Assembly: GCA_004195035.1 (NCBI GenBank)
Contig: SGBD01000001.1
Coordinates: 540,368 to 604,367 of the forward strand
Reading direction: 5' to 3'
DNA: 64,000 nucleotides
From: Candidatus Acidulodesulfobacterium ferriphilum
Lineage (GTDB): Bacteria > SZUA-79 > Acidulodesulfobacterales > Acidulodesulfobacteraceae
Below are positions 6,804 through 8,275 of this stretch, piece after piece (positions within the stretch are counted from its first letter, which is position 1; every line of letters begins with the position of its first letter). The translations under genes and the position numbers were made by a program. The notes under the pieces are model-generated. The model made no database searches. It saw only the letters and a list, made by a program, of their open reading frames with translations, and was not told the DNA's origin.

Positions 6804-7529
6804 CTACATTACGCCGTCTATCGCCTTTTGCTGCAGTTCCGTGATTTTCGATACGGCGCTTTTTGAAAGTTCGTAAAGTTTCGTCAGCATATCTAATTCA
6901 ATAGGCGTTTTTTCCGCACACCCTTGAACCTCGATTATCTTCCCAGACCCCGTTAAAACAAAGTTAAAATCCAGCTCGGCAACGGAATCTTCCGAATAAT
7001 CGAGATCAACTAAAATTTCACCCTTTACTATTCCGATACTGATAGCTGCCGCCGAGTCATAAAAAGGCATTTTTTCGATATCGCCCTGTTTAATAAGATT
7101 TAAGAATGCCAGATAAGCGGCGACATATGCCCCTGTTATCGAAGCCGTTCTTGTCCCGCCGTCCGCGCTTATAACATCGCAATCTATTAATATGGTTATG
7201 TCTGGAAAATCGGAAAAATTAATAACGGATCTGAGCGACCTCCCGATTAACCTTTGTATTTCCTGCGCTCTTCCGTTAATCCTTCCTTTGACCGAATCCC
7301 TCGGTATCCTGTTTTGCGCCGACCTCGGAAGCATGGAATATTCGGCTGTCAGCCATCCTTCCCCTTTATCTTTTAAAAACGGGGGTACCTTATAATCTAC
7401 GGAAGCGGTACAAATAACCTTAGTGTCCCCTGTCTCGATTAAACACGAACCTTCGGCATATTTCATATAATTCGGCGTTATTACCATCGGCCTCGCTTCG
7501 CCGCTTAACCTGTTTTTCTTTCTTGCCAA
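6804..7529 (-). CDS. rph: Ribonuclease PH
   Basis: Phosphorolytic 3'-to-5' exoribonuclease that trims tRNA 3' ends. The protein shows the RNase PH fold with CTASV, LTAEYSMLPR and INGRAQEIQRLIGRSLR segments and the SADGGTRTASITGAY core. I chose a TTG start at 7529 because AGGAG lies seven bases upstream and the protein then has the usual 241 residues. A GTG at 7550 is the alternative and would add seven residues without a good ribosome site. The start region overlaps or abuts the end of the TusA-like gene (stop at 7541-7543), so the two are likely co-translated. rdgB follows. Confidence 0.93.
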   Translation of the reverse strand: MARKKNRLSGEARPMVITPNYMKYAEGSCLIETGDTKVICTASVDYKVPPFLKDKGEGWLTAEYSMLPRSAQNRIPRDSVKGRINGRAQEIQRLIGRSLRSVINFSDFPDITILIDCDVISADGGTRTASITGAYVAAYLAFLNLIKQGDIEKMPFYDSAAAISIGIVKGEILVDLDYSEDSVAELDFNFVLTGSGKIIEVQGCAEKTPIELDMLTKLYELSKSAVSKITELQQKAIDGVM

Positions 7530-7540
7530 AGTATTTTCTC

Positions 7541-7798
7541 CTATTCCCACTTTTTATTCTTAATAAAAAATATGTAAAGGTCTTTCAAGTTAATTACATT
7601 AAGCAATTTTACATTAATAAGCGAACATAACGCAGGAATATCGTTTAATAAAGAATTCTTATCCGAAATTACCATTAAAACATCATCCTGTTTTAAAACT
7701 TTAAGTTTTTGGACGACCGCCCAAACAGGCGGCCCTCAGCAAAGCCCCCTAATATCGAGGCTGATGTTTCCATAATTTAAGTAAGATTTGTCCTCCAT
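7541..7798 (-). CDS. TusA/SirA-family protein with in-frame TGA at the catalytic cysteine (candidate selenoprotein)
   Basis: An 85-codon gene that standard callers would split, because codon 21 (7736-7738) is TGA. Read through, the protein aligns with TusA: LDIRGLC-U-GPPVWAVVQKL matches the family pattern RGLxCPxPV, with the TGA on the conserved sulfur-carrying cysteine. The rest is also family-like (KQDDVLMVISDK, LLNDIPALCS, LKDLYIFFIKNKK) and ends at TAG. The ATG at 7798 has a strong AAGGAG six bases upstream. It lies between nusB and rph, 42 bases after nusB, and its 3' end runs into the rph start. TGA is used as an ordinary stop elsewhere here (cas1, trmD), so this is not a code change. 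A SECIS-like hairpin follows the TGA. The most likely reading is a selenocysteine-containing TusA-like redox or sulfur/selenium-transfer protein; a decayed pseudogene is the alternative. Confidence 0.8.
7708..7738 (-). promoter_or_regulatory. Candidate bacterial SECIS element
   Basis: On the minus strand, the UGA at 7736-7738 is followed by a hairpin at 7708-7725. Its seven base pairs (UUUGGGC with GUCCAAA, one G-U pair) close a GGUC tetraloop at 7715-7718. The loop starts 17 bases after the UGA. The known E. coli fdhF SECIS also presents GGUC in its apical loop at nearly the same distance. A competing, more GC-rich hairpin (GGCCGCC with GGCGGUC) can form closer to the UGA. Confidence 0.72.
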
Positions 7799-7840
7799 TT
7801 TTTCTCCTTAATATTTTTTCTCCTTAATTAATTTAGCCGC

Positions 7841-8275
7841 TCAAGCCGCTTTAAGCGCTGCATCTAAAATACCGTTGACAAAAGAAGGGGATTCATCGTT
7901 TCCAAATTTTTTAGCTATTTCCACGGATTCGTTGATAATAACATTTTTAGGTGTTTCAGGATGAAATAAAATCTCGTAAAGCGACAGTCTTAGAAGATTT
8001 CTGTCAATTCTTGACATCCTTTCTATCGACCAATTTTTTGATACCTTTTTAATAATGTTGTCTATCTTTTCTAAATTAAGCAATGTCCCTTGGGAAATAT
8101 CGAAAAAAAAATCGTAAATCTGGGATGTGTCCTTTTTAAATCCGTCTCTAATAAGACTTTCCGAAGCAAAATCATTATAAAAACTTCTTATTTTATAATC
8201 TAACCCGTTTATATCCCCATCCGTTTCATATAAAAACTGCAATGCCAGTTCCCGTGCCTTTCTTCTTTTTGTCAT
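7841..8275 (-). CDS. nusB: Transcription antitermination factor NusB
   Basis: Small RNA-binding protein (144 aa) that, with NusE/S10, promotes antitermination of rRNA transcription. The sequence has the NusB signature: RRKARELALQFLYE at the N-terminus, SRIDRNLLRLSLYEILF in the middle, and INESVEIAKKFG with SFVNGILDAAL at the end. It follows ribH (8318) by 42 bases in the same direction, the widespread ribH-nusB arrangement. Downstream is the TusA-like gene. Assignment is firm. Confidence 0.95.
   Translation of the reverse strand: MTKRRKARELALQFLYETDGDINGLDYKIRSFYNDFASESLIRDGFKKDTSQIYDFFFDISQGTLLNLEKIDNIIKKVSKNWSIERMSRIDRNLLRLSLYEILFHPETPKNVIINESVEIAKKFGNDESPSFVNGILDAALKAA

Follow-up and report, generated by a model that had tools for sequence, protein, structure and literature searches.

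A predicted selenocysteine-containing member of the TusA superfamily with a vicinal Cys-Sec pair in the Acidulodesulfobacterales

Introduction

TusA proteins stand at the crossroads of sulfur trafficking. The canonical motif of the family is RGLxCPxPV, which includes the working cysteine. Asp45 and Asp51 of TusA are conserved residues near the active Cys; Asp45 is absolutely conserved and is hydrogen-bonded to the backbone of Cys19 (PMC2854127). YedF proteins (TIGR03527) share the TusA-type domain and occur in selenium-using bacteria (PMC5322559). Links between SirA/TusA-like proteins and selenium metabolism have so far been made by gene neighbourhood, with no direct tie, and the earlier ones concern YedF, which contains cysteine (PMC2432076, PMC5322559).

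The Acidulodesulfobacterales are acid mine drainage bacteria; they are sulfate reducers and may also be able to oxidise sulfide (PMC6776010). For one genome of this order (1.87 Mb, 97% complete) an earlier note, made from the sequence alone, had proposed that an 85-codon gene between nusB and rph, interrupted only by a TGA at codon 21, encodes a selenocysteine (Sec) form of a TusA/SirA-family protein. Here we describe this gene, referred to as Sec-TusA, and its homologues among 30 genomes of the order. The window is the whole stretch of 64,000 nucleotides that was analysed.

Results

The Sec-TusA gene and its neighbours

The features of the locus are listed in Table 1. The gene lies where the earlier note had placed it, to which we add that it is on the minus strand. 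With TGA read as Sec the product is MEDKSYLNYGNISLDIRGLC-U-GPPVWAVV...NKKWE*, which has 85 residues and a single TGA. The AAGGAG site that had been noted ahead of the ATG is present a few bases 5' of it, and most full-length homologues have similar purine-rich sites. A tight coupling of the 3' end to rph had also been claimed. An overlap exists if the rph frame uses a GTG start; a later rph start is possible, so that the claim is reasonable but not certain.

The gene order at the locus is ribBA-ribH-nusB-(Sec-TusA)-rph-rdgB, where ribH, nusB, rph and rdgB are named by Pfam. This order is conserved across genera with minor exceptions downstream: ribBA-ribH-nusB precedes the gene in 27 genomes, and synteny with rph is kept in nearly all relatives. 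These neighbours are housekeeping genes, they are uninformative on the substrate and the neighbourhood fits no one function over another.

Table 1. Features of the Sec-TusA locus (positions in the window).
Feature	Position	Strand	Description
Predicted Sec-containing TusA-like gene	7541..7798	minus	85 codons and TAG stop; TusA fold
UGA codon 21	7736..7738	minus	Predicted Sec, aligned with E. coli TusA Cys19; invariant in 27/27 homologues
Cys20 codon	7739..7741	minus	Immediately 5' of the Sec codon; vicinal Cys-Sec pair; Cys in 27/27
SECIS-type hairpin	7708..7725	minus	7-bp stem UUUGGGC/GUCCAAA, GGUC loop 7718-7715; covariation, synonymous freeze, spacing
Ribosome binding site	7799..7810	minus	AAGGAG, 5' of ATG; basis: sequence
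rph (RNase PH)	6804..7550	minus	Next downstream gene; PF01138/PF03725
nusB	7841..8275	minus	Next upstream gene; PF01029

Conservation of the in-frame TGA

The Sec-TusA gene is found in 27 of the 30 genomes of the order and in all six genera, each copy having exactly one in-frame TGA. Codon 21 is TGA in every homologue (27/27), always preceded by Cys and followed by Gly. Neither Cys nor any other codon occurs at this position among the 27 homologues from six genera, a comparison that the earlier note had suggested. Cys20, Sec21 and Cys58 are all invariant. The ratio pN/pS, calculated for 11 representatives, is 0.16 upstream of the TGA and 0.26 downstream; the coding sequence is under purifying selection at both flanks. 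No frameshift or further lesion was found in the genes of the relatives (27 homologues), so that the signs of decay for which the earlier note would have searched close relatives are not seen.

The same note had considered a random nonsense mutation at this position unlikely, and two observations strengthen that view. One is the identical TGA in all 27 homologues. The other comes from the window itself, which contains 38 TGA sites preceded by 15 or more open codons and followed by 35 or more; only the site in Sec-TusA has a correctly spaced GG-loop hairpin. TGA terminates 7 of the 46 long frames in the window, and is thus an ordinary stop elsewhere.

Three genomes (G003, G018 and G024) do not have the gene. 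Both G003 and G024 also lack nusB, therefore the absence is probably an assembly gap. In G018 rph comes immediately after nusB and Sec-TusA is cleanly missing, the tRNA-Sec being nonetheless present; given this clean loss, the gene is dispensable there.

A SECIS-type hairpin and the Sec machinery

The GGUC loop of the candidate SECIS hairpin begins 17 nt after the UGA and is invariant among the homologues. Across 24 distinct sequences 95.8% of the stem cells are paired, with 24 cells altered on both sides. The covariation score is 0.358 against a shuffled mean of 0.167, none of 500 shuffles reaches 0.358, and slid controls in which the partners were moved by 1-3 bases score at most 0.112. The synonymous difference is 0.08 in codons +6 to +9, covering the loop and the 3' arm, compared with 0.76 in later codons. 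E. coli fdhF has the identical GGUC loop at 18 nt after the UGA, and selD of the source genome has a GG loop at 17 nt, as in Sec-TusA. SelB together with Sec-tRNA would bind the GGUC hairpin and insert Sec at codon 21.

A competing hairpin near the UGA, GGCCGCC/GGGCGGUC, is the more stable fold in the source sequence. This minimum-energy hairpin was rejected as the SECIS element, it lacks covariation and is broken in most relatives.

The earlier note had proposed a check for selA, selB, selC and selD, and all four are present in the source genome: selA scores 561 bits, selB 313 bits, selD 360 bits and the tRNA-Sec, with anticodon TCA, 71.6 bits. Among the 30 genomes of the order selB and tRNA-Sec are each found in 25. 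The selD gene (L094, G000:C5:16396-17316) is a Sec gene itself, with an in-frame TGA in the motif HGUGCK, and this TGA is an internal positive control. It lies about 4 kb from selA; Sec-TusA is distant from selA, selB and selD in the source genome.

Relationship to TusA

With U read as C, the product scores 37.4 bits against the Pfam TusA family (PF01206, gathering cut-off 28.6). Against the TusA equivalog NF001423 it scores 42.3 bits, which is below the cut-off of 78 bits. Sec-TusA is thus predicted to be a member of the TusA superfamily and not an orthologue of the TusA that acts in tRNA thiolation. An AlphaFold2 model made with 27 sequences has a pLDDT of 94.9 and the TusA order beta-alpha-beta-alpha-beta-beta, its best match in the PDB being E. 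coli TusA in complex with IscS (3LVJ, TM 0.86).

Sec-TusA resembles E. coli TusA (YhhP) in fold, in length, in the position of the active residue and in having equivalents of Asp51 and Cys56, the latter aligned with Cys58. As the earlier note had it, the TGA coincides with the TusA cysteine, U21 aligning with Cys19. The two proteins differ around this residue, where Sec-TusA has Sec for Cys19, Cys for Arg18 and Gly for Pro20, so that RGLxCPxPV becomes RGLC-U-GPPV. The CPxP motif is therefore not intact (C-U-G-P-P-V): the first proline is lost and the second is kept. Likewise Asp51 is kept in 27/27 homologues but Asp45 is replaced by Lys in 27/27. Two elements of the canonical acceptor site are thus replaced, Asp45 and the proline that follows the active residue, and the usual relay from IscS to TusA may therefore not operate.

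Distribution

A scan of genome contigs found Sec-TusA in the same lineage only, apart from a single short match, of doubtful significance, to a Neisseriaceae MAG. In a profile search of 386 genomes, the 356 outside the family (same domain) gave only Cys-containing TusA proteins with much lower scores. A second small phylum gave only Cys-containing TusA at lower scores, and a search of plasmids for Sec-TusA gave no match. Within the genomes searched, which are a minority of all, the Sec form appears to be limited to the SZUA-79 / Acidulodesulfobacterales-like lineage.

A Cys-Cys paralogue and other TusA genes

A paralogue with the motif GMCCSVP (L006:1486-1734; G000:C1, about 673.2-673.5 kb) is present, at the threshold used, in 4 of the 30 genomes (G000, G007, G010 and G018). 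It has a nitroreductase and a TetR regulator on either side and an isochorismatase-family gene further on. In the tree this Cys-Cys (CC) paralogue and the Sec-TusA groups are joined (97/94), a grouping for which long branches call for caution. G010 has a second, divergent CC copy (L061:880-1137), in which the active motif is changed to LCSSCCLGV. It lies immediately 5' of the intact copy and is possibly decaying or a new variant.

TusA genes are also found at L103:3672-6072 (G000:C4), where a DsrE-like gene and two tandem TusA genes occur with a pyridine nucleotide-disulfide oxidoreductase that resembles sulfide:quinone reductase. One of the tandem TusA genes has the motif SCCMPP, in which the second Cys stands at the position of the CPxP proline.

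Discussion

The reading of the gene as a selenocysteine-containing member of the TusA/SirA family is supported by the Sec machinery, the TGA in 27/27 homologues, the covarying hairpin and purifying selection. Judged from sequence comparison, it is very probable that Sec-TusA encodes a true selenoprotein, with TGA read as Sec at the position of TusA's working cysteine. A frame interrupted by a stop codon could also reflect an assembly error or a pseudogene that arose through a nonsense mutation, but the identical TGA recurs with no other lesion in 27 genomes that come from several assembly projects and six genera, with selection on both flanks and a conserved hairpin 3' of the TGA. The comparison of the 27 genomes rules these two explanations out, and we give them practically no weight. 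The UGA might alternatively be read in some other way, by a recoded genetic code or by readthrough without Sec, or the 20 codons ahead of it could make a short peptide that acts as a regulatory leader. Against these readings stand the use of TGA as a stop in the window, the 64 downstream codons, which evolve as protein and are predicted to fold as TusA, and the coincidence of the UGA with the catalytic Cys, followed by a SECIS element at standard spacing. The alternative code and the leader peptide were rejected on TGA stop usage, downstream selection and the covarying hairpin, and this whole set of readings is highly improbable.

We infer that Sec-TusA carries sulfur or acts in redox chemistry through its Cys-Sec pair. 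This view is based on the TusA fold, on the location of the pair at the active position, on the existence of a Cys-Cys paralogue and on the lower pKa that selenols have. In the proposed mechanism a persulfide, polysulfide or thiosulfonate would donate sulfane sulfur to the Sec21 selenolate. Cys20 would then resolve the Se-S bond, forming a Cys-Sec selenenylsulfide, and the protein would serve either to transfer sulfur rapidly or as a redox carrier that reduces sulfur. Sulfur uptake by Sec21 with resolution by Cys20, taken as a whole, is tentative and we rate its chances a little short of even. Selenols are much stronger acids than thiols, thus Sec21 would remain reactive if the cytoplasm were slightly acidic, as it may be in the acid mine drainage hosts of Sec-TusA.

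Two other functions are each unlikely, though either is a good deal more credible than a pseudogene or another decoding of the UGA. Sec-TusA could deliver or buffer selenium in the manner of YedF, Sec21 passing a second selenium to SelD or to another acceptor. Gene neighbourhood ties YedF and SirA-like proteins to SelD (PMC2432076, PMC5322559), and the genome uses Sec and has a SelD that is itself a selenoprotein. However, the gene is away from selA, selB and selD and lies behind ribBA-ribH-nusB in 27/27, it has no DsrE-like domain, and it scores 25 bits against the YedF model NF008242, which has a cut-off of 79. A selenium carrier that needs Sec for its own synthesis would also be circular, although SelD does so. 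The Cys-Sec pair, possibly with Cys58, could instead capture As(III), Hg(II) or similar metals and metalloids. In favour of this function are the CU motifs of the metal-linked selenoproteins SaoC, MbdU and SaoL (PMC13188914), the invariance of all three residues and the acid mine drainage habitat of the lineage (PMC6776010), which is acid and metal-rich. On the other side, no metal-resistance gene is found among the recognised neighbours in the relatives, the fold is that of a plain TusA, and Cys58 corresponds to Cys56 of E. coli TusA and is therefore not specific to the subfamily. Sulfur or redox chemistry involving the invariant Cys20 is the favoured reading, and the gene is without any tie to selenium delivery here.

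The 119 families in an inventory of prokaryotic selenoproteins from 2026 (PMC13188914) include no TusA/SirA selenoprotein, nor does one appear in a 2022 review or in the 2008 ocean (GOS) survey. NCBIfam release 20 (June 2026) has no model for one, and Sec-TusA reaches the cut-off of no model in that release. The lack of a TusA selenoprotein in the inventory, reviews and NCBIfam (preprints and most subscription papers were outside the search) suggests that Sec-TusA is a new selenoprotein family with a known fold. It is quite likely that this family is a lineage-wide TusA-fold sulfur carrier with Sec as the sulfur acceptor in a vicinal Cys-Sec pair. If so, sulfur would be carried on a selenol, a chemistry of which we found no description for TusA. 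The gene will be truncated or overlooked in annotations of the lineage wherever UGA is taken as a stop, and small sulfur carriers merit rescanning for Sec.

Adjacent Cys-Sec pairs are found in other families, namely SaoC, KCU-star/DUF466, MbdU, HgcA and the Csac_0668 family, and none of the CU-motif selenoproteins in the inventory is given as a TusA (PMC13188914 Table 1). In YedF the CPxP motif contains Cys, and a DsrE-like second domain accompanies the TusA-type domain; Sec-TusA lacks both features, and its gene is not a neighbour of selD. The CC paralogue is more similar: the two positions of the Cys-Sec pair are likewise occupied by a vicinal pair (CC, against CU in Sec-TusA), the CPxP proline is lost and Lys replaces Asp45. 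It differs in having Cys for Sec, in the Ser that stands where the proline was, and in its locus. Together the CC paralogue and Sec-TusA would define a CC/CU subfamily, and the occurrence of both genes in one lineage provides a natural Sec/Cys pair for testing the contribution of selenium to sulfur transfer.
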